Virus record (IMG/VR): IMGVR_UViG_3300036652_000884
Coordinates: 1-22,151 of that record
Reading direction: 5' to 3' (one strand)
Source of the DNA: a virus
Length of the DNA stretch: 22,151 bases
Shown here: one piece after another, positions 3,418 to 17,222 of the stretch
Layout: every line of letters starts with the position of its first letter
Position numbering within the stretch: position 1 is the first letter of the stretch
Notes under the pieces: model-generated
Seen by the model: only the letters and a program-made list of their open reading frames with translations
Databases searched by the model: none
What the model was told of the DNA's origin: nothing
Translations under genes and position numbers: made by a program

Positions 3418-3725
3418 GTCATCGGGCGTTGGGCGAGCAGTTTCTCTACCACCGGACGACGCCTGACAACGCCGCTAACCTCCTCCGTGAGGGGCGGTTC
3501 CACCCGCACCCTGACACCCCCGGCAACGTCTACGCCTCGGACAAGGCCAACCCGCCGAAGGGGTCATTCACCTACGACTACGGCGAGGGCGTGGTCGAGA
3601 TCAAGGTGCCGCCTGGTGCTGCCCACCTGGAAGATGACTTCGGTAACGAGCGGCACTACCGCATTGACGCGCATCGACTTCGGCCCGAGCACTTCACCCG
3701 CGCCTGGTCGGATGTCACGACCTAG
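3414..3725 (+). CDS. Small hypothetical protein, possible ADP-ribosyltransferase-like fold
   Basis: This 103-residue protein starts in an ATGA overlap with the endonuclease gene, so the two are probably co-translated. Its N-terminus (FLYHRTTPDNAANLLREGRF, 10-29) resembles the first strand and helix of small ADP-ribosyltransferase-fold proteins, which typically begin with a Tyr-His-x-Thr strand followed by an A..I/L..G helix. VYASDKANP (39-47) and VVEIKVPPG (60-68) could be the Tyr strand and the Glu strand of an H-Y-E triad (H13, Y40, E62). Such proteins use NAD to modify targets and occur as phage head-carried toxins or host modifiers. The match is by pattern only and the protein is short for an active enzyme, so an inactive relative or unrelated fold is possible. 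The pair 2707-3725 may be one inserted accessory unit. Confidence 0.7.
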   Translation: MSHRALGEQFLYHRTTPDNAANLLREGRFHPHPDTPGNVYASDKANPPKGSFTYDYGEGVVEIKVPPGAAHLEDDFGNERHYRIDAHRLRPEHFTRAWSDVTT

Positions 3726-3749
3726 CCGTGTAGAAGCACCGCGCTCAGG

Positions 3750-3778
3750 CTGACAGCACCTAGCAGCTTCCTCCAGTC
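3750..3778 (+). promoter_or_regulatory. Degenerate copy of the two-block intergenic motif
   Basis: This lies in the 139-nt gap 3726-3864. CTGACA is followed by AGCAGCTTCCTCCAGTC, closely resembling the stretch at 648-678 (CAGACG...AGCAACTACTCCGCAGTC). It is a weak relative of the three stronger copies at 4339, 11107 and 12596. CTGACA is also one base from a TTGACA -35 box, but no TANNNT box lies at the right distance. Confidence 0.25.
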
Positions 3779-3864
3779 TCGACGGTGATGTCACGAGGAC
3801 CGTGCTACCAGCCCGGGCCCGTTCGCGTTCAGCCCCACCAGAGACACTCACCCGGAGGAATTAC

Positions 3865-4320
3865 ATGGCAAAGCAGCAGGGTCGCCCAGGCGACTTCACC
3901 GGCATCCAGAAGGCCAAGCTGGCGCAGCAGCACGCCGAGGACGTGGCCGCCCGTGAGGGCGAGCTGGCGATGATGGAGGCCGCCGAGGCCGAGGCCGCCA
4001 AGAACCGCGTCACCGACTACTCGGGCGGCGCGAGTCACCCGGTCGTCATTGAAGACCCCGACGTCGTGGCCGAGGCCGAGCTGCTCCTGCAGCGCGAGGG
4101 CCACCGCGATCAGGGCAGTACTGACGACGACGTGCAGATCCTCGACGCCGAGGGCGTCGTCGCCAAGGGCCCGGAGACGCGCCTGATCCGGGTCAACAGC
4201 GACCTCAAGGACGTCACCATCGGGGCCGGCAACCTCTACACGTTCCTCGAGGGCGAGAAGTACCGGGTGCCCATGAACGTCGCGGACCACCTCGAGGAGA
4301 AGGGGTACGTCTGGCACTGA
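3865..4320 (+). CDS. Hypothetical small head/structural protein
   Basis: The start is the ATG at 3865, placed by GGAGGAA (3854-3860). An in-frame ATG at 3802 gives a 21-residue extension rich in Arg and Pro and has no ribosome site, so it is rejected. The 151-residue protein has a charged Ala/Glu-rich helix (about 15-48), an acidic linker (60-95) and a compact C-terminal part with a strand-rich stretch (VTIGAGNLYTFLEGEKYRVP, roughly 119-138) and a closing helix ending EKGYVWH. The C-terminal pattern looks like a small domain that packs on a larger virion partner, but I do not recognise the family. Position between the capsid gene and the neck genes suggests a head accessory or completion protein. 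Confidence 0.8.
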   Translation: MAKQQGRPGDFTGIQKAKLAQQHAEDVAAREGELAMMEAAEAEAAKNRVTDYSGGASHPVVIEDPDVVAEAELLLQREGHRDQGSTDDDVQILDAEGVVAKGPETRLIRVNSDLKDVTIGAGNLYTFLEGEKYRVPMNVADHLEEKGYVWH

Positions 4321-4333
4321 GGTCCGCCTCAGT
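4316..4333 (+). promoter_or_regulatory. Hairpin over the stop codon of the preceding gene
   Basis: ACTGAGG (4316-4322) and CCTCAGT (4327-4333) form a perfect 7-bp stem with a TCCG tetraloop. The stop codon TGA (4318-4320) is in the left arm. It lies immediately upstream of the motif copy at 4339-4372, so a weak terminator followed by a new promoter is one reading. Confidence 0.45.
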
Positions 4334-4338
4334 ACAGC

Positions 4339-4372
4339 CAGACATTCTCGCTCCTGTTCACCACACTCGGTC
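4339..4372 (+). promoter_or_regulatory. Two-block intergenic motif, copy A (candidate late promoter or operator)
   Basis: CAGACA (4339-4344), 17 nt, then CACACT (4362-4367) followed by CGGTC. The same two blocks with 17-18 nt between them recur at 11107-11140 and 12596-12628, each in a gap upstream of a gene. The spacing matches bacterial -35/-10 geometry, but the boxes are not the housekeeping consensus. Confidence 0.5.
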
Positions 4373-4397
4373 GTACGCGCCGTTCGGAGGAATCAGC

Positions 4398-4802
4398 ATG
4401 GCTCTGCAGAAGATCAACGTCGGCACCAACGAGGACGGCAGTCCTCGTTGGCAGTACGTCAATCCGGACGGCCACCTCGTCATCACCGGCCCGATCACGG
4501 GCGAGGTGACGCTCGCGGACGGCAGCACCGTGAACGTCACCCCCGACGTGATCGAGGCAGACTCCCCCGAGCACGCGCTCGCGGTGTCCGACGCCATCGG
4601 TCGGCATTACGAGACGTACAGCCATCCGCTGCACGACGGGGACCAGCCTTTCACGCTGACGCCGTCGGAGGTGACGCACGAGTCGGACGGCACCCCGTCC
4701 GCTGCGTTCGCCTCGACGGTGGAGGCGCACATCGTGGCCGGCAAGGACTCCAGCCCGCAGGGCGTCCTGGCCGCGCTGTCCGGCTCGAACAAGAAGGGCT
4801 GA
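4398..4802 (+). CDS. Hypothetical protein, possible head decoration protein
   Basis: The 134-residue protein is preceded by GGAGGA (4386-4391) at good spacing. The N-terminal half is strand-rich and glycine-punctuated (KINVGTNEDGSPRWQYVNPD, then LVITGPITGEVTLADGSTVN), resembling a compact beta domain with a hairpin repeat. The rest is polar, and the C-terminus ends in a flexible SGSNKKG tail. I do not recognise the family. Size, beta content and the site next to capsid genes would suit a capsid decoration or head-stabilising protein, but this is inference from position. The separate candidate promoter upstream hints that it can be transcribed independently of the capsid gene. Confidence 0.78.
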   Translation: MALQKINVGTNEDGSPRWQYVNPDGHLVITGPITGEVTLADGSTVNVTPDVIEADSPEHALAVSDAIGRHYETYSHPLHDGDQPFTLTPSEVTHESDGTPSAAFASTVEAHIVAGKDSSPQGVLAALSGSNKKG

Positions 4803-4807
4803 CCGAG

Positions 4808-5173
4808 ATGCCTCGCGCAGCAGCAGTAGCCGAGAATGCAGCCCTCAACGGGCTCGATGGCACCGGGGCGGCGAACACCGTCCCGTTCACCGGTCTGAAC
4901 ACGGGCGACCCGGCGACGACAGGGGCGAATGAGAACCCCTCGACGTCCGGCTACGTCCGGCAGGCTACGACGTGGAACGCTGCGTCGGCCGGGGCCAAGA
5001 CCAACTCGTCGGCGTTGAGCTTCTCCACGGCCGGGACCACCGCTGTGTCGTACTTCAGCGAGTGGTCGGCGGCGACGGCGGGGACATTCTCCATCGGCGG
5101 CCAGCTCGCGTCGGCCGTCACGGCCGCGACGATCACCGTGGCGGCGGGCGCGATCAGCCTCGGCGCGTCCTGA
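4808..5173 (+). CDS. Phage tail-fibre-like beta protein
   Basis: The start is taken as the ATG at 4808, six nt after the previous stop; an in-frame ATG at 4448 would lie wholly inside the preceding gene and is rejected. The 121-residue protein matches a common small family usually annotated as phage tail fibre protein. Its marks are a GDPATTGANE loop (about 38-47), an YVRQATTWNAAS strand, a KTNSSALSF segment and a glycine- and alanine-rich end (VTAATITVAAGAISLG). These proteins are short, beta-rich and probably part of surface appendages. The ribosome site is weak, so expression may depend on translation of the gene ahead. It is followed by a longer beta protein and an esterase, which suggests a surface-appendage cluster. 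Confidence 0.75.
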   Translation: MPRAAAVAENAALNGLDGTGAANTVPFTGLNTGDPATTGANENPSTSGYVRQATTWNAASAGAKTNSSALSFSTAGTTAVSYFSEWSAATAGTFSIGGQLASAVTAATITVAAGAISLGAS

Positions 5174-5207
5174 CGAGGGTGCTACGAGTCTCTGAGGAGG
5201 GCTAGGC

Positions 5208-5717
5208 ATGAGCGCCTGGCCTCCGGCAATCCACCAGGATGTGACGGACGCTGTCACGGCCCTGCAAGGCGCTACCCCCGAGTTGGCGGTGGCCGTCAAC
5301 AATCAGGCATACACGATCCCGACTACTGGCACTTGGTACGACGTGCCGGCCATGACCATGCTGGTGCCTGCCAGTGCGGCTTGGCGCACCGAAGTCTTCG
5401 TCCCGGTGGTGATGAACAACTCGGCGACATCCATGCCAGCCAACGGCACCAACTGCTACGTCCAGGCCCGCGTGGTGGATGCTGCTACTTCGTCGGCCCT
5501 GTACGGGTTCGGGATCTTCCAGATCGTCAACAATGGCCTCGCTAATCAGGCTTGGTACGGCGAAATGAACTTCTCCCAGAGCAATGATCCACTCACAGCG
5601 GACACCGTCGTGAAGCTGCAACTCACCGCTGCCTCCCTGACCGGCACGTTCACCTACGCCACCTACGTTGTAAGTCCTCTCACCGGAGGCGTCGAGATGA
5701 GAGCGGTGCGTCGATGA
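5208..5717 (+). CDS. Putative fibre/receptor-binding beta protein coupled to the esterase
   Basis: The 169-residue protein starts behind a strong AGGAGG (5195-5200). It has a short helical N-terminus (1-27), then alternating hydrophobic strands rich in Thr, Ala, Tyr and Asn (AYTIPTTGTWYDVP, WRTEVFVPVVM, CYVQARVVDA, FTYATYVVS), a pattern expected for a jelly-roll-like domain. No catalytic motif is seen. Its stop overlaps the start of the alpha/beta-hydrolase gene by 4 nt (ATGA), implying coupled synthesis at similar levels. A second gene of like character (11144-11818) is coupled in the same way to a second hydrolase. A receptor-binding or carrier fibre that positions the enzyme on the virion is the simplest reading. 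It is not identified by family. Confidence 0.78.
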   Translation: MSAWPPAIHQDVTDAVTALQGATPELAVAVNNQAYTIPTTGTWYDVPAMTMLVPASAAWRTEVFVPVVMNNSATSMPANGTNCYVQARVVDAATSSALYGFGIFQIVNNGLANQAWYGEMNFSQSNDPLTADTVVKLQLTAASLTGTFTYATYVVSPLTGGVEMRAVRR

Positions 5718-6766
5718 TCGGCCGGATGCGGGCAGGGTTGTACTCGTCCAACTACGGTTCAGATACGTCCTACTTGGCTTACCCGAGTTCGTACGGCTCG
5801 GGAGTGGGGACTCGGCACGTCATCCTGTGCTGCCACGGTCACGGGGGATACTCCTACCAGTACGCCCCAGCCTCGGCCGCAATGCCGGGAGTCCACACCC
5901 CGACGCTGGTAGACGGCAACGGCTTCGTCGTGCTCGGGGTTGACCACTCTGCCATCAATGCCTGGGGCGCTCCGAACGCCATGCGCGCGCTGGATGACGC
6001 GTACAGCTACCTCGTCAACACCTTCAAGATGCCGACCGCCAAGATCGGCATCCAGGCGTGGTCTATGGGCGGTCTGACGGCCCTCAACTGGGCGCTACGT
6101 AACCCGGCCAAGGTCGCCGGCCTCTGGGCATGGAATCCGGCCACGGACCTTCAGTTTTGGCAGAACGCGGGGTACTCTCCGACCTATTCTGCTGGCGGTA
6201 TTACCGCTGGTGCCTACGCGTCAGAGGTAAATGGGGACTACGCGCCGTCGACGACGCACTCCACGACTGGCACTATCAACGCTGCTGGTGGCGCAGGGAT
6301 CACGATGGTGATCGCGAACGGCAAGCCGTTTTCGGATGCCACCACTCTCGGTGGTTCAGCATTGCCGCAGGCAACAGTGAACTCTGCGACCTTCACCTAT
6401 ACGAGCAAGGACGACACGCATCTATACGGGTGCGTCGCGACCGGGGTTACCCCCATCGTCATCACGTCGGGGCAAACGGTCACGGGTGTCTACGGTACGC
6501 AATCTCCGGGGTATAGCCCCTGGCAGAACGCCTCGGCCTTCTCGGTCGGGAACGGGTTCACCTTCCCCATCAAGATCGTGCAGGCCACGGACGACACCAC
6601 GGTCCCGCCGGCCATGAACAACGACGCGACCCACGGCTTCATCGCTCGCACTGGCAATGCCAACATCACCGCGCGCTCTCCCGCCGTCACTGGCGGGCAC
6701 AGTGGTGCGATCAGCAACGTCCCCTCCACCGAGGTGGTTGCCTTCTTCAACAACCTGACGTGGTGA
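5714..6766 (+). CDS. Alpha/beta-hydrolase (putative virion esterase) with inserted beta domain
   Basis: The 350-residue protein has a full alpha/beta-hydrolase set: an oxyanion-hole motif after the first core strand (HVILCCHGHGG, 35-45), the nucleophile elbow AWSMGG with Ser117, an Asp strand (IVQATDDTTVP, Asp293 or Asp294) and the terminal His in GGHSG (His329). The elbow begins with Ala rather than the usual Gly. Between core and Asp strand, residues about 185-262 form a beta-rich stretch (ATVNSATFTYTSKDDTHLYG) that looks like a fibre-type module inserted in the enzyme. Known phage relatives include esterases that remove acyl groups from surface polysaccharide and lysin B enzymes that cleave mycolyl esters. 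Its place among structural genes favours a virion enzyme acting at adsorption, but substrate is unknown. No signal peptide is seen. Confidence 0.85.
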   Translation: MIGRMRAGLYSSNYGSDTSYLAYPSSYGSGVGTRHVILCCHGHGGYSYQYAPASAAMPGVHTPTLVDGNGFVVLGVDHSAINAWGAPNAMRALDDAYSYLVNTFKMPTAKIGIQAWSMGGLTALNWALRNPAKVAGLWAWNPATDLQFWQNAGYSPTYSAGGITAGAYASEVNGDYAPSTTHSTTGTINAAGGAGITMVIANGKPFSDATTLGGSALPQATVNSATFTYTSKDDTHLYGCVATGVTPIVITSGQTVTGVYGTQSPGYSPWQNASAFSVGNGFTFPIKIVQATDDTTVPPAMNNDATHGFIARTGNANITARSPAVTGGHSGAISNVPSTEVVAFFNNLTW

Positions 6767-6798
6767 GTACGCCCGCGCGCCTTTCATAAGGGGCCGAC

Positions 6799-8418
6799 AT
6801 GGCTACATGGACTGGCAGCCTCGCTTGGACCGCGTCTGACCCGTGGGCTGGCCCGGATACCGGGAGCGGCACTGCTGCGACAGCGACGGGCTCGCTACTG
6901 CTCACGGCGGGTGCTGCCGCCCCGGCGGGTGCTTCCGCCTCGGCGTCCCTCTCCCTCAACGCATCGGCTGCGGCGCAGGGCGGCCTGGCCACCACAGGAT
7001 CCGTGTCTCTCACTGCTGGGGCCACCGCCGCAGCACCCCTGTCTTCGTCAGCATCGCTTGCACTGACAGGATCTGCTACCACCACGGCGACCGCGGCAGG
7101 AACTGGTTCGGTAGCACTCACCGCTGCGGCCGCAGCCACAGCTTCCTTGTCCGCAGCAGCCTCGCTGGCCCTGACGGGCGCGATGTCGGCCATGTCCCCG
7201 GCCAGCGCGCCGGCCCTGTTGGCCCTGACAGGAGCCGCTACAGCCGCGACTCCGGCCTTCCTAGGTGCTGCGCTGTCCCTCTCTCTGACTGCTGCTGCGG
7301 TAGGGGTTGGCAGCTCCACCGCTGCACTGTCGCTCGTCGAGAGCGTCGCGGAGGCTGACGCACGGACGGCAGCCACAGGCAGTCTCGTGCTATCGACTGC
7401 CGCAGTGGCGAACTCCCCAGTGACTACCGCCGGGGCTCTGTCCCTGGTGGCGGCGGCGGGGCCAGGTGCGGGATTCGGCTCAAGCGCCGCGCTGCTTGTA
7501 TCCGCCGCTGCCTCCTCCGAAGGCACGGTTATCAGCAACGGCGCGGGCGTGCTGCTGTCGGCGGCAAATACGGGTCTGGCCGCCCCGTCCACGGGCACGG
7601 CCATTCTGCTGCTGATGGGCACAGGCGCAGCCGGGTCGTTGTCGTCGACAACTTTGGCAGAGCTCGCAGTCCTCGCCACGGCGACGGCATCCGCCCCCCC
7701 GTCAGTCGCCACTGGAGTCCTGCAGATCACCGCAACGACCGTGATGCAGGTGCCCATCACCGCGGTCGGTGCGGTGCTGCTCTCGGTGTCAGCCGTTGGA
7801 CAGGTGCCAGTGGTCGGCAGCGGGGCCCTGGTGGTATCCGCAGTGGGCTCTACCGCCGTCCCGGCCATACCCTCGGCCTCCTCGATGCTGATATCTGCCA
7901 CTGGCTATGTGGGCACTGCTCCTTCGCTGGTGACATCGCTGGTGCTCACCGGGAGCGCGGCCTCCCCGAGGGGGGTCGCCTCGGGGGGTGCCTCCATCGG
8001 CCTGACTGCGGCAGCGACCGGAGTCGGCATCGCGGCGGTCACGGCGACAGCCACGATCCAACTCTTGGTCGTCATGGCGATACAGGCGGTGGTGACATCC
8101 GGCAGCAGTGTGACGATCACCGCTGGGGCGGCCCCGGATGTCCCTACCGTCTTCTCGGCCGGTGTGTCCCTGCAGGCCGTAGGTCTCGTAGCCACATCGG
8201 GGATTTTCTCGGCCTACCTGCTGCTCGTGGCGAGCGCAGGTACGGGTGCCCCGTCGGTGGCAGCGTCCGGGCACCTAGTCCTCTCAGCACAGGCCGTGGC
8301 GGTAGACGCCGACCCCGTCACTTTGCTCGGGCCGCCCCGGGCACTCGTGGACGTGGTGGGGATCCTGTCCTCGTTCACGGGGGCAATGTTGTCGGTAACT
8401 GGGACGATGGCCCAGTGA
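6799..8418 (+). CDS. Ala/Ser/Thr-rich protein made of about 26 degenerate 18-residue repeats
   Basis: This 539-residue protein consists almost wholly of tandem units of about 18 residues with the pattern T/S-G-S-L-x-L-T-A-x-A followed by an Ala/Thr/Pro/Ser linker (for example TGSVSLTAGATAAAPLSS and TGSVALTAAAAATASLSA). In the first seven units the Leu-Thr codons recur at exact 54-nt steps (6901, 6955, 7009, 7063, 7117, 7171, 7225); later units drift and vary by one or two residues. It has almost no charged residues and no Cys. Regular short strands separated by small-residue turns suggest a beta-solenoid or fibrous shaft. The start has AAGGGG (6788-6793) at good spacing. It follows the esterase gene and precedes the neck genes, so an elongated virion appendage is likely. 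I do not recognise the family. Hydrophobicity could wrongly suggest a membrane protein. Confidence 0.85.
   Translation: MATWTGSLAWTASDPWAGPDTGSGTAATATGSLLLTAGAAAPAGASASASLSLNASAAAQGGLATTGSVSLTAGATAAAPLSSSASLALTGSATTTATAAGTGSVALTAAAAATASLSAAASLALTGAMSAMSPASAPALLALTGAATAATPAFLGAALSLSLTAAAVGVGSSTAALSLVESVAEADARTAATGSLVLSTAAVANSPVTTAGALSLVAAAGPGAGFGSSAALLVSAAASSEGTVISNGAGVLLSAANTGLAAPSTGTAILLLMGTGAAGSLSSTTLAELAVLATATASAPPSVATGVLQITATTVMQVPITAVGAVLLSVSAVGQVPVVGSGALVVSAVGSTAVPAIPSASSMLISATGYVGTAPSLVTSLVLTGSAASPRGVASGGASIGLTAAATGVGIAAVTATATIQLLVVMAIQAVVTSGSSVTITAGAAPDVPTVFSAGVSLQAVGLVATSGIFSAYLLLVASAGTGAPSVAASGHLVLSAQAVAVDADPVTLLGPPRALVDVVGILSSFTGAMLSVTGTMAQ
6880..8335 (+). repeat. Degenerate tandem 54-nt (18-codon) coding repeat
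   Basis: The approximate span of the repeat array inside the 539-residue protein. The register is exact (54 nt) from 6901 to 7225, then changes by multiples of 3 (the next unit is 60 nt), so the period is kept at protein level while the DNA diverges. Units are not near-identical in DNA, so this is an old array rather than a recent expansion. Confidence 0.7.
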
Positions 8419-8440
8419 TCCGGGCAATGAGGGAGTACGC

Positions 8441-9517
8441 ATGACGACCGAGGCGGATGTTCTCGCCCGAGTGCGGCTTGAGCTGGCAGACCCTCTGACG
8501 CCGTTTGAGTCCACTGTCGTAGGCGACGGGGTGACCCGGCGCTACGAGCTTCCGAGCAGTCCTGTCAGCGCCTCGACGGTGCTGGCCTTCCTGACCGCGG
8601 CTACGCCTGGAGCAGTCCCGACCGCGACCACCGGCTTTACTCTCGACGTCGATGCGGGGGTAATCACCCTGCAGACCCCGCTGGGCGTGGGGGACACACT
8701 CACTGTCCGAGGGTCGGCATCGAAGTACTTCACCGACGATGAGCTGCTGCTGTTCATCCGCACAGCCGTGGGTCAGCACCTGAACAACCGTGGGCTGACC
8801 CTGGCGACGATGCCGCCCGTCGAGGATTACCTTGTCGCATTGCTCGCCACCGTCGAGGCGCTCTACGCCTTGATGAACGATGCCGCCTTCGACATCGACG
8901 TGTCCACGCCCGAGGGCGTGGGCATCCCCCGCTCGCAGCGGTTCCGCCAGCTTCAGGAGATGGTGGAGATCCGCAAGTCCCAGTACACCGAGATGGCCTC
9001 GGCGCTGAACGTGGGGCTGAACCGCATCGAGGTCACAGACCTTCGTCGTGTGAGTCGCTCGACCGGTCGTCTGGTACCTGTCTACCTGTCCCAGGAGCTG
9101 GAAGACCGGCAGCCTCCGGTGCGGGTGTTCACTCCCATCGACACTCACGGCGTTGCTCCCATCGTTGACCCCAATGCGGTCGTCGACGACATCTCGATCT
9201 ACGAGTACGGGTACTTCACCTACCCCCTCGTGCTCGGTCGGGACGTCACGAACTACAAGGTCGACGCGCGCATCCGCCGGTACAAGGACTCGAGTTCGCT
9301 GCGCGAGTTCACCGTGACGGTCAATGACGCCCTCAGCGGTGCCATCGAGCTTGACCTGACCCCCAGCCAGACGGGGCAGCTCCCGCAGAAGCTCTTTTGG
9401 GATCTGCGCCTGACCAACCGCATCACCCGGGAGGTCATCCTGCTCCGCAAGGGCGCTGTCACGGTCATCCAGCAGGTGGGTGTGGACGAGTCCGTCGGCC
9501 CGGTAGCGCCGTACTGA
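8441..9517 (+). CDS. Putative head-tail connector / neck protein
   Basis: The 358-residue protein starts behind GAGGGAG (8428-8434). It has an N-terminal MTTEADVLARVRLELAD helix of a kind seen in head-tail connector proteins, a beta-rich section (25-90), a helical middle (about 100-190) with FTDDELLLFIRTAVGQHLNN and a long helix rich in Arg and Glu, and a beta-rich C-terminal domain (210-350). The first three sections together resemble adaptor proteins that assemble under the portal, while the C-terminal part looks like an added strand-rich domain. Its stop overlaps the next gene in a TGATG junction, so both are probably made in fixed ratio. Position between capsid and tail terminator genes supports a neck role. 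The exact family is not recognised, so this is inference from order and architecture. Confidence 0.82.
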   Translation: MTTEADVLARVRLELADPLTPFESTVVGDGVTRRYELPSSPVSASTVLAFLTAATPGAVPTATTGFTLDVDAGVITLQTPLGVGDTLTVRGSASKYFTDDELLLFIRTAVGQHLNNRGLTLATMPPVEDYLVALLATVEALYALMNDAAFDIDVSTPEGVGIPRSQRFRQLQEMVEIRKSQYTEMASALNVGLNRIEVTDLRRVSRSTGRLVPVYLSQELEDRQPPVRVFTPIDTHGVAPIVDPNAVVDDISIYEYGYFTYPLVLGRDVTNYKVDARIRRYKDSSSLREFTVTVNDALSGAIELDLTPSQTGQLPQKLFWDLRLTNRITREVILLRKGAVTVIQQVGVDESVGPVAPY

Positions 9518-10254
9518 TGTCGCGCTTTGGCAACAAGGGGCGCTTCGACACCCGCTACGAACTCGACTCGGTCTACGAGTCGATGCGGGAAGACCTTCAG
9601 CAGTACATCGGGCAGTACGTCCCGTGGTACCGATTCGACCGCGCCGGCAGCACGGTGGACCCCATCTACGACGTGGGGGCGTCCAGCGGAACCGGCGGCC
9701 GCAAGTTCTTCCCGCCCTTCCTGCTGCCCGTAATCTCAGCCGGACTAGCAGAGGGCGTAGAGGTCAACGTCGGCCAGGGCGAGTACACCACCGACGTATG
9801 TCACCTCGTCGTGTCCTACGACCAGGCCGAGAAGGCCGGGCTCCGCAACATGGCGATCAACTGGCGGCTCTTCATGGGCGACCGCTTCATCTGGAACAAC
9901 ACGGTCTTCCAGGTCCGCAGCATCCAGGTTCGGGGCCCGGTAGGGCCGCGGTACGAGGTGCTCGGGATCGACGGCTGGCAGGTGAACGCTGAGGAGCTCA
10001 TCAACGACGTCGACTTCCTGGCCTTCGCCGGCCCGGGGGATAACGCCAGCATGGTGGAGATGCTCGAGGCCATCGACGCTGGACTGGAGGCCCCGGAGCC
10101 CTCTCCCGAGCTGGACACCGCCCTGACTCCCGCGCCGGGAGCGGCACAACTTGTTGAGACTGAGCTCGAGGCTGAGCCGACGGCCACGACGACCTACGTC
10201 GAGCCGGTGATCCGTAACTCCAGGTACGACAGCATCTACGGGAGACCGTCGTGA
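9517..10254 (+). CDS. Putative neck protein / head-tail stopper
   Basis: The start is the ATG at 9517, overlapping the previous stop (TGATG); an upstream in-frame ATG at 9397 lies inside the previous gene and is rejected. Of 245 residues, the first 180 look folded: a helix (RYELDSVYESMREDLQQYIG), then strands ending in FMGDRFIWNNTVFQVRSIQV (about 124-143) and a closing YEVLGIDGWQ. A strand pair of this G-D-x-F-x-x-x-x-x-x-F-x-V type with a following glycine turn occurs in head-tail stopper and joining proteins. Residues 185-228 are a Pro/Glu/Ala/Thr linker, and the last 17 residues (EPVIRNSRYDSIYGRPS) look like a short docking peptide. The call depends on pattern and order; other small neck roles are possible. 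Confidence 0.82.
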   Translation: MSRFGNKGRFDTRYELDSVYESMREDLQQYIGQYVPWYRFDRAGSTVDPIYDVGASSGTGGRKFFPPFLLPVISAGLAEGVEVNVGQGEYTTDVCHLVVSYDQAEKAGLRNMAINWRLFMGDRFIWNNTVFQVRSIQVRGPVGPRYEVLGIDGWQVNAEELINDVDFLAFAGPGDNASMVEMLEAIDAGLEAPEPSPELDTALTPAPGAAQLVETELEAEPTATTTYVEPVIRNSRYDSIYGRPS

Positions 10255-10457
10255 GCGACCAGCAGCTCGGCCTCTGGCCGAATGACGACCGCAACGACCA
10301 CTTCGCAGCCGGCGCGAGTCTCCCCAAGAAGGCGCACCTGCCCGGCATCGGCCACGTCCAGGTGCTCGACTACCACGGCAACGGGCGCTTCATGGTGCTC
10401 GACCGCAAGGACAACCGTCGGCTGGTGCACCGCGACCGTCTGACCTTCCTCAAGTGA
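10251..10457 (+). CDS. Microprotein with SH3/KOW-like beta pattern
   Basis: This 68-residue protein starts with GTG in a GTGA overlap with the neck gene. After a polar N-terminus (1-30), residues 32-68 alternate strands and turns (HVQVLDYHGNGRFMVLDRKD, then RRLVHRDRLTFLK). This resembles a small SH3-like barrel such as a KOW or Tudor fold that binds nucleic acid or protein. There is no Cys. It begins a run of short genes chained by start/stop overlaps up to the holin-like gene. Function is unknown; the fold is a guess from strand spacing. Confidence 0.72.
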   Translation: MSDQQLGLWPNDDRNDHFAAGASLPKKAHLPGIGHVQVLDYHGNGRFMVLDRKDNRRLVHRDRLTFLK

Positions 10458-10639
10458 ACGACTCCCTCGGCCCCCAGTTCCAGAAGGGGAAGACTCACTT
10501 CATGGGGCACCGCTCGGGTGAGCGCGCGGCGTGCGGCAAGTACATCCCCGCCGTGCACCGCCCACAGGACGCGGCTCGCTGGTCGAGCAACAAGGACGAC
10601 GTCACCTGCAAGGGGTGTAAGAACAGGATGCAGCCGTGA
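10454..10639 (+). CDS. Zinc-binding-type microprotein
   Basis: A 61-residue protein with a GTG start in a GTGA overlap. H15, H19, C27, C52 and C55 form a likely metal site: a THFMGHRS strand, an AACGKY knuckle and a final VTCKGCKNRM knuckle. Small actinophage proteins with a CG...VTCxxC layout of this kind are common and uncharacterised. It is basic near the C-terminus. The neighbouring gene also carries a Cys/His site, so the two may work together or derive from a common type of zinc microprotein. No function can be assigned. Confidence 0.72.
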   Translation: MNDSLGPQFQKGKTHFMGHRSGERAACGKYIPAVHRPQDAARWSSNKDDVTCKGCKNRMQP

Positions 10640-10824
10640 GCAAGGTCGATGACTGGAACGCTGCCAGGCTGGGTCGCGCGACCGGTCGGCACCCGTTCAC
10701 CGGCCGCGGGTCGGACCAGCCGAACGCTTGCGTCATCTGCGTGCACGGCCCGAACCACGAGGTGCACCAGGGCGGCGAGGTCATCAGCCTCGACCAGTTC
10801 CGGGCACGGAGGAACAATGCCTGA
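10636..10824 (+). CDS. Second Cys/His microprotein
   Basis: A 62-residue protein with a GTG start in a GTGA overlap. C32, C35, H37, H41 and H44 (CVICVHGPNHEVH) form a compact possible zinc site, flanked by a basic N-terminal stretch and a C-terminal strand and helix (EVISLDQFRARRNNA). The stop lies 8 nt inside the holin-like gene, and that gene's GGAGGA site lies within this coding region, so their expression is linked. No family recognised. Confidence 0.7.
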   Translation: MSKVDDWNAARLGRATGRHPFTGRGSDQPNACVICVHGPNHEVHQGGEVISLDQFRARRNNA

Positions 10825-11089
10825 GCCCACCGCGCTGACCAGCGTGCCGCCGGACGCGTCGAAGACCTGGACGAAGCTCTGGCTCGCCTGGATCGCGGCG
10901 TTCTTCGCCCTCGAGCTCCCGCCGCTGTTCCGCGGCCGACCGCAGGACACCCTGTCAGATCACGTCTGGGCCTGGTTCGGTATCCCGCAGCACCGGCCGC
11001 CGGAGCGCGACGTCCGCATCCGGCGGATCGTGCTCGTGACGCTCCTCGCGTGGCTGTGCAGCCACTTCCTGACCGGCGACGAGGTCTAG
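10817..11089 (+). CDS. Holin-like small membrane protein
   Basis: The start is the ATG at 10817, supported by GGAGGA (10808-10813); an in-frame ATG at 10649 lies inside the previous gene and is rejected. The 90-residue protein has two probable membrane helices, about 20-38 (KLWLAWIAAFFALELPPLF) and 70-85 (RIVLVTLLAWLCSHFL), separated by a polar loop with a DTLSDHVWAWF segment. Arg residues (69, 70) precede helix 2. Two-helix proteins with a LAWIAAFFALE start and a DTLSEHVW-like loop are widespread in actinobacteriophages and often annotated as holin or membrane protein. A holin would form the pore that times lysis. I see no endolysin gene beside it in the window, so the lysis role is not proven. 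Confidence 0.8.
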   Translation: MPEPTALTSVPPDASKTWTKLWLAWIAAFFALELPPLFRGRPQDTLSDHVWAWFGIPQHRPPERDVRIRRIVLVTLLAWLCSHFLTGDEV

Positions 11090-11106
11090 TTCCGCGCCTG
11101 TTCACG

Positions 11107-11140
11107 CAGACAGAGGTAGCCCCCACAGGCCACCCTGGTC
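11107..11140 (+). promoter_or_regulatory. Two-block intergenic motif, copy B (candidate late promoter or operator)
   Basis: CAGACA (11107-11112), 18 nt, then CACCCT (11131-11136) followed by GGTC. It lies in the 54-nt gap between the holin-like gene and the second fibre gene, ending 3 nt before the start codon. If transcription starts just downstream, the message would be leaderless or nearly so, which fits the lack of a ribosome site there. Confidence 0.5.
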
Positions 11141-11143
11141 GTC

Positions 11144-11818
11144 ATGGCGACTGCGTACGACCCGAACAACCCCCTCTCTGACGGCTGGTCGACGCAGCGT
11201 GCTGGTACTGAGCCGATTTACCCTGTCGCCCAAGATCCACTAGGACTTAATGCGACTTTTGGCACACCCGCGTACACGCTCGCCAGTCGCCCCGCGGCGA
11301 CCGGCTCCGGTCTGGTGATCTTCGTCTCGGATCTCAATGGCGGGACGCTGCAGAAGGACACGGCAGCGGCGACGTGGACCCCACTCGCACCCGGCTCCTC
11401 GCAGGCCGCGACCCCCGCACTGGCCGCGTCGGCGGCGCTCACAGCCAACTACTCGATGGCCTCGGGAGTGGCAGCCAACACTGGTGTCGACGTCGCGGGC
11501 CTGTCGGTGACGTTCACGGCAATGGCCGGGGCGACCTACTCCATCCGGGGTCTCTACTGCCTGACCGTCGCAGCCGGAGCGAACACCGGGTACGGCGAGA
11601 TCACTGACGGATCGAACAACATCCTCGACGTGCAGGGAGTGACCCAGACCAACAGTGCTGGCATTCGCATCGCGCTCGAGGCGCTCGTGACGCCCAGCGC
11701 CGGGTCGGTGACATACAAGGCGCGCATCGCGTTCAGCGCCCTGTCGGCGGCGGGGTCGGTCGTTGTGGTCGGTGGCGCGACGTTCCCGTCGCGGCTGACT
11801 GCGCTGCGTGTCGCGTGA
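11144..11818 (+). CDS. Putative fibre/receptor-binding beta protein coupled to the second esterase
   Basis: The 224-residue protein begins MATAYDPNNPLSDGW and has an N-terminal domain (1-85) rich in Gly, Pro and Thr with strands such as LVIFVSDLNGGTLQ, a short Ala/Ser linker (86-105), then alternating strands (VTFTAMAGATYSIRGLYCLTV, split by glycine turns) to the end, as expected for a jelly-roll-like or C1q-like head domain on a fibre. There is no clear Shine-Dalgarno sequence: the ATG follows motif copy B by 3 nt, so a leaderless transcript is possible. Its stop overlaps the next gene (GTGA), an alpha/beta-hydrolase. This repeats the arrangement at 5208-6766, and both fibre proteins end with a short basic strand. 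The family is not recognised; a virion receptor-binding role is inferred. Confidence 0.78.
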   Translation: MATAYDPNNPLSDGWSTQRAGTEPIYPVAQDPLGLNATFGTPAYTLASRPAATGSGLVIFVSDLNGGTLQKDTAAATWTPLAPGSSQAATPALAASAALTANYSMASGVAANTGVDVAGLSVTFTAMAGATYSIRGLYCLTVAAGANTGYGEITDGSNNILDVQGVTQTNSAGIRIALEALVTPSAGSVTYKARIAFSALSAAGSVVVVGGATFPSRLTALRVA

Positions 11819-12576
11819 CAACGCATACGACCTACGGCACGGGCTACTCCACCGCTGCGCCGACCGAGGCGCAGGTGCTGCGTACCCACCATAACTTCAA
11901 GGCGGACGGGACGAAGATCGGCATCATCGCGTGCCACTCGGCTACCGCCCGGGCGACTGCTGCGTTCCCCAACCCGACGATCAGCAACGTCTACCCGAAG
12001 ATCCAGGCGTGGTTGGCCGAGTGCGGCTGGCCTGTGCTTACCGCCGACCTGTCTGGTGATCCATGCGGCAACGACACCGGCACGGCGCGCGTCGAGGAGG
12101 CCCGCGTCTATCTGCAGTCCAAGGGCGCGAAGTCCGGCAAGGTGATCCTTCTCGGCTGGTCTGAGGGCGGCATGATCGCCACGAACTACACCCGCGTATA
12201 CCCGAACAATGTCGCCGCGATGGTGCTGCTCCAGCCGGGTTCGGACATCACCGATGTCGTCACGAACAACCGTGGCGGCTTCGCCGCACTGCTGAACGCC
12301 GCCTACTCAGGTGGCTGGTCCGAGGCTACCTACGGGGCGACGCACAACCCCGTGGACATCGCACCTCTCTTGACCGCGATTCCGTCCTGGGTCGGCTATG
12401 CCACCGACGACACCGTGGTCCTCCCGTCGACTGTCGCGACCCTTGCCTCTGGTCTGCAGGCGAGTGCCGTCTACACCAACACCGGTAACCACGGAGACGG
12501 CTTCCTGTCGCATCTGGTGGACGCTGACGGATCGGTCGGGATGATCTCGCGCTGGCTCGCGGCCCAAGGCTTGTAG
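11815..12576 (+). CDS. Alpha/beta-hydrolase (second putative virion esterase)
   Basis: The 253-residue protein starts with GTG in a GTGA overlap. It has the nucleophile elbow GWSEGG with Ser116, an Asp strand (WVGYATDDTVVLP, Asp198 or Asp199) and the terminal His in TGNHGDGF (His226), so the triad is complete. The position of the usual oxyanion-hole HG motif reads ACHSATAR (39-46), which differs from the first hydrolase (HGHGG). Unlike that enzyme it has no inserted beta domain and has near the minimal size for the fold. The Asp motif ATDDT is shared by both enzymes, so they may be distant paralogues. Likely substrates are acyl esters of cell-surface glycans or lipids of the host. No signal peptide or wall-binding domain is seen. 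Confidence 0.84.
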   Translation: MTTHTTYGTGYSTAAPTEAQVLRTHHNFKADGTKIGIIACHSATARATAAFPNPTISNVYPKIQAWLAECGWPVLTADLSGDPCGNDTGTARVEEARVYLQSKGAKSGKVILLGWSEGGMIATNYTRVYPNNVAAMVLLQPGSDITDVVTNNRGGFAALLNAAYSGGWSEATYGATHNPVDIAPLLTAIPSWVGYATDDTVVLPSTVATLASGLQASAVYTNTGNHGDGFLSHLVDADGSVGMISRWLAAQGL

Positions 12577-12595
12577 TAACGCCGCGTAGTTCAGC

Positions 12596-12628
12596 CAGAC
12601 AGTCGCTCTCGCGCGCACCACGCTGGTC
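12596..12628 (+). promoter_or_regulatory. Two-block intergenic motif, copy C (candidate late promoter or operator)
   Basis: CAGACA (12596-12601), 17 nt, then CACGCT (12619-12624) followed by GGTC. It lies in the 114-nt gap 12577-12690 and shares CAGCCAGACA and the CACCAC stretch with copy A at 4334-4372. The rest of the gap holds only a weak TGCAGG/CCTGCA inverted repeat (12640-12662) and the ribosome site of the next gene. Confidence 0.5.
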
Positions 12629-12690
12629 ATGTCGCCCACTGCAGGGCGATGAAGGGCCTGCACGCGTGACTGCACCGGAGGTGATCTGCC

Positions 12691-12933
12691 ATGGCTCGAT
12701 TCACTGAGCATCAGGGCGATCCCGCGTGGCTGAAGTCGCAGCGTGAGGCCCAGGCGCGCACCCGCAACACGGCGCGCGTGCACCGGGCCATGCCCTACCC
12801 CACGCAGACGCCCGTCGTGACGCCGACCGCGCCGAGCAACGCGCAGTTCCACGAGGGCGCGAAGTCCAACAGTGGAGCGGCCTTCGTCCTCGGCGTGATC
12901 GCTGGTGCATACCTGCGAGGCCGTCGTGGCTGA
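12691..12933 (+). CDS. Small hypothetical protein with hydrophobic C-terminus
   Basis: The 80-residue protein has one of the best ribosome sites in the window (GGAGGTGAT, 12677-12685). The N-terminal 50 residues are basic and polar, with a Pro/Thr-rich middle (MPYPTQTPVVTPTAPSN). The C-terminus has a short hydrophobic segment (GAAFVLGVIAGAYL) followed by RGRRG, as in a tail-anchored or membrane-touching protein, though 14 residues is short for a spanning helix. Its stop lies inside the start of the next gene. No family recognised. Confidence 0.72.
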   Translation: MARFTEHQGDPAWLKSQREAQARTRNTARVHRAMPYPTQTPVVTPTAPSNAQFHEGAKSNSGAAFVLGVIAGAYLRGRRG

Positions 12934-13234
12934 CCCGATGACGGCCGCAGCTCAGCACGTTTGCTCCGAGCTCACCCCGCTGCTGCGCTCCTACGCGCGC
13001 GAGGCAGGGCTGGAGGCAACCCTCGCCAACAGCCTCAACCTCGTCTGGACCGGTGACACCTTCGAGGCGCACAGCCCGGTCTCGCTCGACACCGCCGAGT
13101 ACGGCAACGGCAAGGGCCCAGCTCCGCGGCCGGTGCACAAGGCCATGACCCGCCTTGAGACCGACGCCGAGAAGCTGCTGACGCAACTTGTCAACGACGT
13201 CGTCGCCCGCCAGGCCCAGGCGGTGAGGTACTAG
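12926..13234 (+). CDS. Putative tail completion / neck protein (HK97 gp10-like position)
   Basis: The start is the GTG at 12926, overlapping the previous stop by 8 nt; an ATG at 12938 is the alternative, and the ATG at 12905 lies further inside the previous gene. The 102-residue protein has an N-terminal helix (AAAQHVCSELTPLLRSYARE), a short strand pair (LNLVWTGDTFEAHSP), an AEYGNGKGPAPRP loop and a long C-terminal helix. This helix, strands, AEYG loop, helix order recalls HK97 gp10-type tail completion proteins. It is directly followed by the tail terminator candidate, with which it may act at the head-tail junction. Family assignment is tentative. Confidence 0.72.
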   Translation: MADPMTAAAQHVCSELTPLLRSYAREAGLEATLANSLNLVWTGDTFEAHSPVSLDTAEYGNGKGPAPRPVHKAMTRLETDAEKLLTQLVNDVVARQAQAVRY

Positions 13235-13861
13235 ATGTTCCTGCTTGAGGAGGACGAGGCGCTCAAGGCGCACCTGTCCGGCATCACCGTGGAGGACGAC
13301 CGCCGTACGGCGCGTCCTGTCGAGGTCTGGTTCGGCCAGCCCGACCTCGAGCTGAAGGCGCGGACGTATCCCTACATCAGCCTCGAGCTCATCGACATCA
13401 ACGAGGCGCGCGAGCGGGTGATGAACGGGCTGCCGATCCTCACCTACATCCCCGACGGCTGGACCGACCCTGGTACCAGCAGTCGTCTGCAGGCCAGCAA
13501 CTTCCCCACGCCGTACGACCTGGACTATCAGGTCACGGTGTGGTCGAGGCACCCGCGGCACGACCGCGAGATCCTGATGAAGCTGCTCGGCCGCAAGCTG
13601 CCGATCCGGTTCGGCCAGCTCCACCTGCTTGAGACCAACCGCACCGTGCGGATGGATCTCTTGGGCGGCCCTCGAGTCGCCGACACCACGGACGAGGCAG
13701 GCAAGCGTCTCTTCCGCAAGGTCTTCACGGCGCGCGTGAGCACCGAGCTGTTCCTGTCTCAGGCGCTCTCGGCTGCTGGCCTCATTCAGTCGGTGGTCAT
13801 CCACACTCCCGACGCCGGCTTGACGCCGGACTTCACCCCCATCGAGGTCACGTTCCCGTGA
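13235..13861 (+). CDS. Putative tail terminator protein
   Basis: The ATG directly follows the previous stop codon, with GGTGAGG (13222-13228) upstream. The 208-residue protein shows an N-terminal helix, a strand pair (ARTYPYISLELIDINEARER), a TPYDLDYQVTVWSRHPRHDREI strand and helix (about 89-110), and a strand-rich end. A mixed alpha/beta protein with a conserved aromatic strand followed by a helix, encoded just before the sheath gene, is the expected position and size for a tail terminator (T4 gp15-like role), which caps the tube and sheath and joins them to the head. The call is by order and fold pattern. Confidence 0.8.
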   Translation: MFLLEEDEALKAHLSGITVEDDRRTARPVEVWFGQPDLELKARTYPYISLELIDINEARERVMNGLPILTYIPDGWTDPGTSSRLQASNFPTPYDLDYQVTVWSRHPRHDREILMKLLGRKLPIRFGQLHLLETNRTVRMDLLGGPRVADTTDEAGKRLFRKVFTARVSTELFLSQALSAAGLIQSVVIHTPDAGLTPDFTPIEVTFP

Positions 13862-13922
13862 TCGCACACCTGGCACTCCACTCGGTCTCCGTCCGCAACC
13901 GCCTCATGGCAGGAGTACCAGC

Positions 13923-15446
13923 ATGGCGACACTGAAGCGCCCCGGCGTCTTCCTCGAAGAGCGTCCTCCGCTCACGATCAACCCGGCCGGCACGGTCGGC
14001 ACCTCGACTGGGGCGCTCGTCGGCGCGGCCACTCGTGGTCCCGTCGTTCCGACCGTGGTGACCAGCTACTCCGGGTTCGCCCGGCTGTTCCACGACGTCT
14101 CCACGGTGGGAGCCTCCGAGCTCTCCTTCCAGGCGTACGGCTTCTTCGCCAACGGCGGGTCGCGGCTGTGGGCTTGGCGTGTGCCCGGTGCGGGCGCGGC
14201 TGCCGCGACTCGCACCCTGACCGACCGCGCAGGCACCCCGCTCGCCACCCTGGTCATCAACGCGGCCAACCCCGGGTCGTGGGGCAACAACATCTACGTC
14301 GACATCACCGACACCCCCGGGTCTGGTGCTCCGGCGACGCAGTTCGACCTCACGGTCTACCTCAACGGCATCACGACGTCCTACATCGTGGAGCGGTTCA
14401 GCGGGCTGACGATGGACCCGACGCAGCCCAACTACGTCCTGACCGTCATCAACAACGCACAGGGCGGGTCGGCGTACATCAATGTCGCCCAGCCCGCCAC
14501 GCCGTCGGTCACGGCCGCGCCGAACAACCTGCCTGCGGTGCAGGCCGGTCGTCAGCTCACCAACGGCCTGGATGGCGCGGCTCCGGTCGACGCTGACTTC
14601 GGCAACGCGATCCAGCTCCTCGACAACGTCTCGGAGGCCGTCAACCTGGGCGTGCCGGGCGCGACCCCGGCGCAGCAGAGCCTGGCGATCTCCTACGGGC
14701 AGAACCGTGGCGATGTCTTCACGGTCTGCGAGCTGCCGACGACGATCACCACCTCGGCGGCGGCCATCACCGCAGCCAGCGGCCTGACGCCCTCGTCGTA
14801 CGGTGCGGTCTACTGGCCGCCCGTCATCGCCGCCAACCCGGCCTCGACGGTCTCGGGGGCAACCCGCATCCAGAACTCGACCGGCGCGATCCTGGGTCTC
14901 ATCGCCCTGACCGACGCCACCCGTGGCATCCAGAAGGCTCCGGCCGGGCTGCAGGCCCGCATTGCTGGTGCACTGGCCCCGGCGGTCAACCTCGTCAGCA
15001 CCGACCTCGACGACCTCAACGTCGCCCAGGTCAACGCCATCCGGCAGCTCCCGGGCAGTGGCGTCGTGGTCATGGGTGCGCGCACCCTGCAGACGGGCGC
15101 GAGCACGCGCTACGTCCCGATCCGGCGCTCGCTGATCTACGTCAAGAGCAACGTCATCAACCTCACCCAGTTCGCGATCTTCGAGCCCAACACCACGCAG
15201 ACGCGGCAGCGCGTCCAGACGGTGCTCGACACCTTCCTGGCGTCGTGCTGGGCGTCTGGTCTGCTCAAGGGCAACAGCCCGAGCCAGGCGTACTACATCG
15301 TCTGCGACAGCACGAACAACACGACGCAGTCGATCTCGCAGGGCGTCATCAACGTCGAGGTGGGCGTCAGCCTCATCACGCCGGCTGAGTTCATTGTCAT
15401 CAAGGTCGGCCAGTTCGAGGCCGGCACGACCGTCACCGGAGGGTGA
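13923..15446 (+). CDS. Tail sheath protein
   Basis: The 507-residue protein is a clear contractile tail sheath protein. It begins with the typical KRPGVFLEERPPLTINPAGT arm, followed by GALVGAATRGP (26-36) and a strand and helix segment leading to YGFFANGGSRLWAWRV. The centre carries an inserted beta domain and the C-terminal part has ARTLQTGASTRYVPIRRSLIYVKSNV (about 381-406), the conserved core that interlocks neighbouring subunits, and ends in a strand that completes the network (AEFIVIKVGQFEAGTTV). The sheath contracts to drive the tube through the host envelope. The start is supported by AGGAG (13911-13915). Its neighbours are tail terminator and tube, in classic order. Confidence 0.95.
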   Translation: MATLKRPGVFLEERPPLTINPAGTVGTSTGALVGAATRGPVVPTVVTSYSGFARLFHDVSTVGASELSFQAYGFFANGGSRLWAWRVPGAGAAAATRTLTDRAGTPLATLVINAANPGSWGNNIYVDITDTPGSGAPATQFDLTVYLNGITTSYIVERFSGLTMDPTQPNYVLTVINNAQGGSAYINVAQPATPSVTAAPNNLPAVQAGRQLTNGLDGAAPVDADFGNAIQLLDNVSEAVNLGVPGATPAQQSLAISYGQNRGDVFTVCELPTTITTSAAAITAASGLTPSSYGAVYWPPVIAANPASTVSGATRIQNSTGAILGLIALTDATRGIQKAPAGLQARIAGALAPAVNLVSTDLDDLNVAQVNAIRQLPGSGVVVMGARTLQTGASTRYVPIRRSLIYVKSNVINLTQFAIFEPNTTQTRQRVQTVLDTFLASCWASGLLKGNSPSQAYYIVCDSTNNTTQSISQGVINVEVGVSLITPAEFIVIKVGQFEAGTTVTGG

Positions 15447-15454
15447 GGTAGGCC

Positions 15455-16186: not shown

Positions 16187-16210
16187 CCCGCTCCACTGGC
16201 CCACTACCTA

Positions 16211-16215
16211 GAGGA
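16211..16215 (+). promoter_or_regulatory. Ribosome binding site fixing the GTG start of the chaperone gene
   Basis: GAGGA lies 6 nt before GTG at 16222 and 15 nt before the in-frame ATG at 16231, so the GTG is preferred. Confidence 0.6.
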
Positions 16216-16221
16216 CTACTC

Positions 16222-17061: not shown

Positions 17062-17218
17062 CAAGGGCGGCTTGACGCTGTACCCAGAGGTGTTCGCGCA
17101 GTACGGCCTACTCACACGGTCCAACCCCGGCTGGAGCATGACGGAGATACGGGATCTGGCGGTACGCGAGCGCCACCACTGGCTCCGTACGGCGCTCGCT
17201 CGTGGCATGAAGGGGTAG
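17054..17218 (+). CDS. Tail assembly chaperone C-terminal extension (downstream frame, probably by +1 frameshift)
   Basis: This short frame encodes APDKGGLTLYPEVFAQYGLL and then about 35 more residues ending in a helix with GWSMTEIRDLAVRERHHWL and a basic ARGMKG tail. The pattern of a short helix, then G-W-S-x-x-E-I-x-x-L-x-V-R-E-R, is typical of the second domain of phage tail assembly chaperones. It has no good start of its own: ATG 17009 lies in the upstream gene out of frame with it and without a ribosome site, and only a TTG (17072) after AAGGG would serve otherwise. It therefore most likely is made as a fusion to the 16222-17061 product through the TTTC site. The tape measure gene starts 5 nt after its stop. 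As a separate small protein it would be unusual. Confidence 0.72.
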   Translation, partial: APDKGGLTLYPEVFAQYGLLTRSNPGWSMTEIRDLAVRERHHWLRTALARGMKG

Positions 17219-17222
17219 GACA

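Follow-up and report, generated by a model that had tools for sequence, protein, structure and literature searches.

Fiber-associated esterases in described phages and putative counterparts in the locus analyzed

In coliphage G7C, the fiber gp66 carries a separate esterase, gp63.1, which deacetylates a surface glycan, as stated in two articles (PMC8825819 and PMC9569702). The latter also describes gp66 of Pectobacterium phage Possum as a tail fiber that deacetylates the host polysaccharide, allowing attachment. Long neck fibers are described for the myovirus A-1(L) in a further article, according to which the carbohydrate-binding end of the neck fiber did not bind the host (PMC10966104). Here, we analyze two gene doublets of the virus contig IMGVR_UViG_3300036652_000884, each of which encodes a small beta-rich, putatively fiber-like protein (fib1 or fib2) followed by a predicted alpha/beta-hydrolase (hyd1 or hyd2). 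The window, i.e., the whole stretch of DNA analyzed, has a length of 22,151 bases and a guanine-plus-cytosine (GC) content of 67%.

The doublets resemble the G7C system in that a fiber is accompanied by a separate esterase protein, but they are known from their genes, and binding between the partners is predicted. Furthermore, gp63.1 is an SGNH hydrolase from a podovirus, with joining domains of the beta-jellyroll type (XD3), whereas hyd1 and hyd2 match only Pfam families of the alpha/beta-hydrolase type, with no SGNH hydrolase domain found in either; Pfam and PHROG searches of fib1 and fib2 found nothing of the XD3 kind and no family match. In Possum, which has a Gram-negative host, enzyme and fiber form a single chain with an SGNH fold, whereas the window contains a separate alpha/beta-hydrolase gene. 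Gene pairs of the gp25-gp26 type in Gordonia phages (Kroosvirus, Vividuovirus, and Leonardvirus) share with the doublets the gene order, the tight spacing, the esterase family, and the invariant Ser, Asp-Asp, and His. However, these phages have one alpha/beta-hydrolase doublet with a gap of 1 to 3 nucleotides (nt), whereas the window phage has two doublets with overlaps, and gp25 carries its own anchor, phrog_35351, which was not found on fib1 or fib2. We found no experiment on the gp25-gp26 pair in the literature searched and, in titles and the beginnings of abstracts, no publication describing such a pair. The Streptomyces myophages LuckySocke, Alone3, GiJojo, pSt2308, and BRock have the structural gene block in common with the window, but the slot that in LuckySocke contains a spike with C-terminal HylP and K1-lyase domains is occupied in the window by a fiber/esterase pair.

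The reading that we favor, with a probability of approximately 0.55, is that the doublets encode two exchangeable, fiber-borne deacylases that act on host surface esters at adsorption. Each doublet would form one host-surface tool consisting of a small beta-rich fiber and an alpha/beta-hydrolase, made from one message by stop-start coupling. The hydrolase would bind to the fiber and be carried by it, and the fiber would dock on the particle by its N terminus, at the head or neck. On contact, the hydrolase may remove acyl esters, most likely O-acetyl or similar groups, from a cell-surface polymer, and this deacylation would clear or reshape the binding site. The two doublets would be separately acquired tools that draw on one esterase family and occupy two variable slots of the head-to-tail block. 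Separate acquisition, virion location, fiber-enzyme binding, the ester substrate, and the role in adsorption are all what we infer from the data presented below.

Organization and predicted expression of the two doublets

Cassette 1 is composed of fib1 (positions 5208 to 5717), an open reading frame (ORF) for a beta-rich protein of 169 residues with the N-terminal motif AWPPAIHQDVTDAVTAL, and hyd1 (5714 to 6766; 350 residues), with S117, D293/D294, and H329 as the predicted catalytic residues. Cassette 2 is composed of fib2 (11144 to 11818), an ORF for a beta-rich protein of 224 residues, and hyd2 (11815 to 12576; 253 residues; S116, D198/D199, and H226), the GTG start of which lies inside the end of fib2. 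All four genes are on the + strand. In agreement with the original prediction, which was made from the letters of this sequence, the ORFs of both pairs (5208 to 6766 and 11144 to 12576) are intact, and the stop/start overlaps ATGA (5714 to 5717) and GTGA (11815 to 11818) are present. The hyd1 and hyd2 starts each correspond to the first ATG, GTG, or TTG following a stop in the respective frame. Gene comparisons were based on 26 genes chosen by eye, with the stretch from 16187 to 17222 omitted. Overlaps of 4 nt are ordinary in this genome, as they occur at 6 of the 25 junctions between these genes. The strength of the ribosome site in this set ranged from +0.7 to -13.8 kcal/mol and was -5.4 kcal/mol for hyd1, -2.7 kcal/mol for fib2, and -1.9 kcal/mol for hyd2. 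The latter is thus almost devoid of a ribosome site of its own, and its translation therefore probably depends on fib2.

A twin contig, with 99.95% identity across window positions 3219 to 22151, encodes all four cassette proteins at full length and with 100% identity. Nine differences separate the window from this contig, and the one located within the cassettes, in hyd2, is silent.

hyd1 and hyd2 as members of one phage hydrolase family

In Pfam, hyd1 matched Hydrolase_4 (E value of 2e-7; 31 bits, cut-off of 27) and Abhydrolase_1 (5.4e-6; 26.7 bits, cut-off of 25.8), whereas hyd2 matched Abhydrolase_1 (9.9e-9; 35.7 bits, cut-off of 25.8) and Abhydrolase_6 (27 bits, cut-off of 26.3) and had a further match with 29.7 bits (cut-off of 27). 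By sequence, both are members of the alpha/beta-hydrolase superfamily with Ser, acid, and His in order, and their activity is predicted. The complete Ser-Asp-His sets originally reported for both enzymes were confirmed, as these columns are invariant over hyd1, hyd2, and four Gordonia phage esterases; the residue numbering of hyd1 derives from an alignment with three of the latter. The sequence ATDDT at the acid is common to hyd1 and hyd2, as had been noticed, but is a family trait: the Gordonia esterases have ATDDA, AADDT, or ASDDA at this position, and both Asp residues are invariant.

Several data support the predicted homology of the two hydrolases. A profile of hyd2 and the four Gordonia esterases scored hyd1 with 45.4 bits, compared to 26.9 bits, obtained with a profile of these five proteins, for an acetylxylan esterase, the best of 177,635 distinct PDB sequences. 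A profile of the four Gordonia proteins alone gave 53.4 bits for hyd2 and 33.1 bits for hyd1, and the best PDB sequence scored 19.2 bits with a profile of these four proteins. In the phylogenetic tree, seven phage hydrolases were split from four host alpha/beta-hydrolases with a support of 100/100. At the level of single sequences, hyd1 and hyd2 share 26% identity over 125 columns (E value of 3e-4), and each scores higher with a Gordonia esterase than with the other; the values for gp26 of Gordonia phage Ashertheman are 24.7% over 150 columns (3e-9) for hyd1 and 25.6% over 180 columns (8e-14) for hyd2. At an E value of ≤0.001, hyd2 matched 27 phage records, all of Gordonia phages, and hyd1 matched none. 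These sequence comparisons place hyd1 and hyd2 in one small phage family, together with Kroosvirus gp26 and the hydrolase end of a 655-residue protein described below. A search of GTDB genomes by hydrolase patterns retrieved 4 loci, with all matches between 93 and 270 nt in length, and these four are the outgroups of the tree. The ORFs of one of them, L021, show an ordinary host hydrolase.

The cassettes as a whole had been proposed to share their origin, which was not borne out. Smith-Waterman comparison of fib1 and fib2 revealed no similarity (Z of -0.6). The hydrolases are closer to the Gordonia esterase and are not sisters in either tree; hyd2 groups with the Gordonia esterases (85/90), and a pairing of hyd1 with hyd2 was present in 2% of the bootstrap trees and in 0% when the longest phage branch was omitted. 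Cassette duplication was consequently dismissed on account of the dissimilar fibers and the nonsister hydrolases, although the approximately unbiased test disfavored a hyd1+hyd2 clade without rejecting it (p values of 0.09 and 0.25). Two separate arrivals thus appear more likely than a duplication.

The fiber-like proteins

Neither fib1 nor fib2 matched a Pfam or PHROG family or a phage record at an E value of ≤1 or a PDB sequence at an E value of ≤5. Their description as fiber-like is weakly supported: residues 3 to 19 of fib1 (the AWPPAIHQDVTDAVTAL region) are 76% identical to the N terminus of a 121-residue fiber-domain protein (Smith-Waterman Z of 8.6), whereas fib2 has no such tie. A search with the N-terminal motif of fib1 retrieved 4 contigs, namely, the twin contig, the 113-kb contig that encodes the 121-residue protein, and two others in which the motif lies inside an unrelated protein; phage records contained no match to this N terminus at an E value of ≤10. 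In 396 genomes sampled within the phylum to which an Acidimicrobiales genome belongs, matches at an E value of ≤0.01 were obtained in 8 genomes for fib2 (best value, 7e-4) and in 7 for fib1 (best value, 0.001), compared to approximately 4 expected by chance.

Recurring doublets and fused forms in other phages

The link between enzyme and fiber that had been proposed for the doublets is supported by the recurrence of this adjacency in other phages and by fused forms. With duplicates between RefSeq and GenBank included, 28 phage records contain the Gordonia gp26 esterase, and gp25 was found at a coverage of at least 80% in 28 records. In 12 of the 12 full-length rows among the matches listed, the esterase gene begins 1 to 3 nt after the end of the 159-residue gp25. 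In Ashertheman and YorkOnyx, the pair is located between the major tail protein and the head-tail adaptor, and the same place is occupied in the Kroosvirus JKSyngboy by a single esterase, gp23, which starts with the phrog_35351 anchor and matches Lipase_GDSL_2 (5e-13) and the head decoration family phrog_9703 (2e-15). According to these gene arrangements, a fusion stands in for the pair, and vice versa, within at least one genus, and this interchange is our main argument that fiber and enzyme work together.

In most cases, only the first 27 to 43 residues of gp25 recur elsewhere, in 93 phage records (91 of Gordonia and 2 of Rhodococcus phages). Among the best 40 of these 93, the features carrying this anchor include glucosaminyl deacetylases, glycoside hydrolases, a lysophospholipase-like esterase, and minor tail proteins. 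Proteins that start with phrog_35351 also include ChadMasterC gp26 (Lipase_GDSL_2, 2e-17) and Fitzgerald gp24 (Polysacc_deac_1, with 18.4 bits under the cut-off of 23.1). In these two Gordonia phages, an alpha/beta-hydrolase gene adjoins the anchor-carrying one, i.e., gp25 adjoins the anchor-GDSL esterase gp26 in ChadMasterC, and the Fitzgerald hydrolase adjoins the anchor-deacetylase. Each phage thus has genes for two putatively virion-borne enzymes, and the notion, as stated, that two such esterases per phage are unusual was not supported. The anchor either precedes differing enzymes or belongs to a small protein whose neighbor is a separate esterase (L007:2203-3519, L009:2209-3462, and L028:3001-4203, among others).

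At two further loci, fiber or virion parts are fused with or followed by enzymes. The N-terminal part of the 655-residue protein, encoded on another contig, is of the virion structural type (phrog_16048, 6e-7), and its hydrolase end is related to hyd1 (33% identity over 90 residues, E value of 5e-8). On the 113-kb contig 3300037419_001822, the 121-residue protein with the fib1 motif and a C-terminal fiber domain is followed, after a GTGA overlap, by a 361-residue alginate-lyase-like protein (22.0 bits, just below the cut-off of 22.2). The 121-residue protein matched the minor tail protein family phrog_8780 (2.6e-14) and the tail fiber family phrog_16053 (2e-5), as well as 262 phage records at an E value of ≤1; apart from the motif, it corresponds to a domain that is C-terminal in minor tail proteins and in virion structural ones (phrog_8780 and phrog_18179) and that also occurs in phrog_16053. 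Judged from its genes, this doublet has the anatomy of a cassette with another enzyme. The family phrog_1357 was not found in the 113-kb contig, and the control likewise gave no match. At L019:4360-7598, two successive enzymes are alike by eye in their alginate-lyase-like part, the second of which contains CBM96 and PKD domains and has an N terminus resembling a signal peptide.

Genomic slots of the cassettes

Cassette 1 and the gene that follows it are inserted between the homologs of LuckySocke gp81 and gp82, beside a Gp80-type fiber gene (all of the neighboring genes described in this section are on the + strand). The latter, directly upstream at positions 4808 to 5173, encodes a Gp80-type fiber/head protein that matched PF23140 ("Podophage GP4 fiber I protein gp80"; 5.1e-11) and the head protein family phrog_240 (1.3e-13); LuckySocke gp81, at the matching place, also matched PF23140 (5e-14). 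In all five Streptomyces phages, the counterparts of gp81 and gp82 are direct neighbors, with nothing at the place of cassette 1. Downstream of this cassette, a repetitive Ala/Thr/Ser-rich protein of 539 residues (6799 to 8418) matched no Pfam or PHROG family at an E value of ≤1; its gene has a third-position GC of 0.731, below that of all others in the set of 26. The gp82 homolog (8441 to 9517; 42% over 254 residues, E value of 2e-56) is a probable head-completion or adaptor protein with an extra C-terminal domain, which could be a fiber attachment site. Its residues 268 to 347 matched phrog_1084 (annotated as unknown; 1.3e-9), and a weak match was to an L-shaped tail fiber assembly family (0.005).

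Cassette 2 and several small genes are located between the gp83 homolog (9517 to 10254; 31% over 209 residues, E value of 4e-28), which probably functions in head closure, and the gp87 homolog (13235 to 13861; 34% over 210 residues, E value of 1.5e-28), a probable tail terminator that forms the right border of the slot. The GiJojo gene at the place matching the latter is annotated as tail terminator, and a BLAST search matched the window gene at 13923 to LuckySocke gp88. The slot of cassette 2 contains a tailspike in LuckySocke, Alone3, GiJojo, and pSt2308 and a tail fiber in BRock, with homology calculated for LuckySocke and for a part of BRock and gene order used for the other phages. In LuckySocke, the slot contains the tailspike gp84, with C-terminal hyaluronidase HylP and K1-lyase domains, together with two additional proteins that have similar N termini. 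The N termini of gp84 to gp86 (L046:6202-10355; also L047 and L048) share the pattern MA-I-LP--GQ--WD-PLN-AL, and their C-terminal ends are quite different, again in the manner of an anchor joined to varying ends. The N-terminal likeness was seen by eye, and Smith-Waterman Z values were 4.7 for gp85-gp86 and 2.3 for gp84-gp86. These sequences point to the gp84-gp86 region, flanked by the head closure and tail terminator genes, as a probable hotspot at which host-surface proteins are exchanged.

The two cassettes had been described as flanking neck and holin-like genes. The neck genes are the gp82 and gp83 homologs, the role of which we infer from gene order, given that LuckySocke gp82 and gp83 are themselves annotated as hypothetical proteins, while the holin-like character was not substantiated. 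The corresponding 90-residue protein (10817 to 11089, with the start chosen here) has a highest 19-residue mean hydropathy of 1.48, and a membrane span usually requires 1.6. The longer ORF (10649 to 11089) matched phrog_3555, annotated as of unknown function (2.4e-23). No endolysin was detected among the 22 window proteins scanned with PHROGs; several ORFs and at least 4.2 kb beyond the window were not all scanned.

Alternative explanations and weight of the evidence

The hydrolases might be carried on the particle independently of their upstream neighbors, the overlaps reflecting compact gene packing. We consider this rather unlikely, although it agrees with the frequency of 4-nt overlaps in the window (6 of 25 junctions), with the position of Gordonia gp26 at 1 to 3 nt behind gp25 without overlap, and with the mutual dissimilarity of the fibers. 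It does not account well for the recurrence of the fiber-then-enzyme order with three dissimilar fiber types and two kinds of enzyme, for the fact that one fused protein occupies this locus in JKSyngboy, or for the near absence of a ribosome site at hyd2 (-1.9 kcal/mol). An improbable alternative is that hyd1 and hyd2 are LysB-like lysis enzymes that act from inside late in infection, the beta-rich proteins being unrelated head or neck decorations. LysB is an alpha/beta-hydrolase, as both enzymes are predicted to be, cassette 2 comes after the small gene called holin-like, and no signal sequence is evident in hyd1 or hyd2, in which no 19-residue stretch has a mean hydropathy above 1.6. However, both enzymes match general alpha/beta-hydrolase families, with no cutinase or LysB Pfam model at an E value of ≤1 and PHROG matches that name only esterase/lipase or unknown function, and family members elsewhere are located among structural genes or fused to a virion structural protein. 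This fused relative also argues against cytoplasmic accessory enzymes (morons) that would alter host lipids or glycans in infection, for example, to exclude other phages, as does the presence of two separate copies, each located in a structural slot behind a beta-rich gene. The moron explanation, with which the lack of an evident signal sequence and a low third-position GC suggestive of recent arrival would be compatible, therefore appears very unlikely.

A number of observations weigh against fiber-borne deacylases or limit the evidence in their favor. (i) The fiber nature of fib2 is suggested by composition and position; fib2 has no relative in viral contigs beyond the twin and no profile match, and fib1 is tied to fibers through 17 residues only. 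In addition, fib1, fib2, and Gordonia gp25 show no significant mutual resemblance, and the AlphaFold single-sequence models were uninformative, with mean predicted local distance difference test values of 40.5 for fib1 and 34.0 for fib2. (ii) The hydrolase end of the 655-residue protein is under the Pfam cut-off (23.6 versus 27 bits) and has no Asp-Asp at the acid position, and a wider search for fiber-hydrolase fusions retrieved only this protein, with none in phage records. (iii) The doublet of the 113-kb contig follows genes for tail and hub proteins instead of head genes, so that the position is not conserved, and a gene behind a fiber could be chance in compact phage DNA. (iv) In the hydrolase trees, the four host outgroups were those returned by the search itself, and the program issued a long-branch warning. 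(v) The lower third-position GC of the four cassette genes (mean of 0.795 versus 0.872 for the others; exact permutation p value of 0.007, 26 genes) is in line with a later arrival, but this test used genes picked by eye.

If the doublets do encode fiber-borne deacylases, the enzyme presented to the host would be determined by a single small gene that can be exchanged behind its docking fiber, which would explain a quick change of surface targets by such phages. Host-surface enzymes would then be placed in head-to-tail gene slots and not in tail-tip genes alone, and pairs annotated as "hypothetical protein" and "esterase" would become recognizable as adsorption modules. The presence of two such esterase genes per phage already has a precedent in the Gordonia phages. 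More tentatively, actinobacterial phages may share a plug-in scheme in which a short, N-terminally docking fiber is translationally coupled with a swappable enzyme, with two such units plugged into two slots in the phage studied here. The enzymes of this scheme may comprise alpha/beta-esterases (here and in Gordonia phages), the alginate-lyase-like protein of another contig, and the fused GDSL esterases or deacetylases, and an exchange of one gene would then suffice to change the enzyme while the fiber stays as it is, a conjecture that we hold with equal reserve.

Phage identity and genome context

The window encodes a major capsid protein (1644 to 2624; phrog_1357, 1.5e-63), a tail sheath (13923 to 15446; phrog_23, 2e-43), and a tail tube (15455 to 16186; phrog_4542, 2e-31). 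Since sheath and tube genes are present, the phage is classified as a contractile-tailed myovirus. Its capsid protein is 70 to 72% identical, over the full length, to those of six records (LuckySocke, Alone3, BRock [two records], pSt2308, and GiJojo), and its tail sheath is approximately 35% identical, over 93% of the length, to Streptomyces myophage sheaths. By these comparisons, the phage is kin to the Streptomyces myophages. The twin contig extends rightward with baseplate genes (L010), which include a baseplate wedge (phrog_43, 5e-17) and a protein with an oligonucleotide/oligosaccharide-binding (OB) spike domain (PF04717, 2.6e-9), the long remainder of which is fiber-like by eye. The tail-tip fiber gene therefore probably lies elsewhere than the cassettes, both of which are in the head-to-tail block.

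Directly 3' of the major capsid gene, at positions 2707 to 3417, the window contains an Endonuclease VII/HNH-like gene, and no such annotation is present at the matching place in LuckySocke. The sole difference of this gene from the twin contig results in the exchange R176C; the other 7 differences in curated genes are silent.

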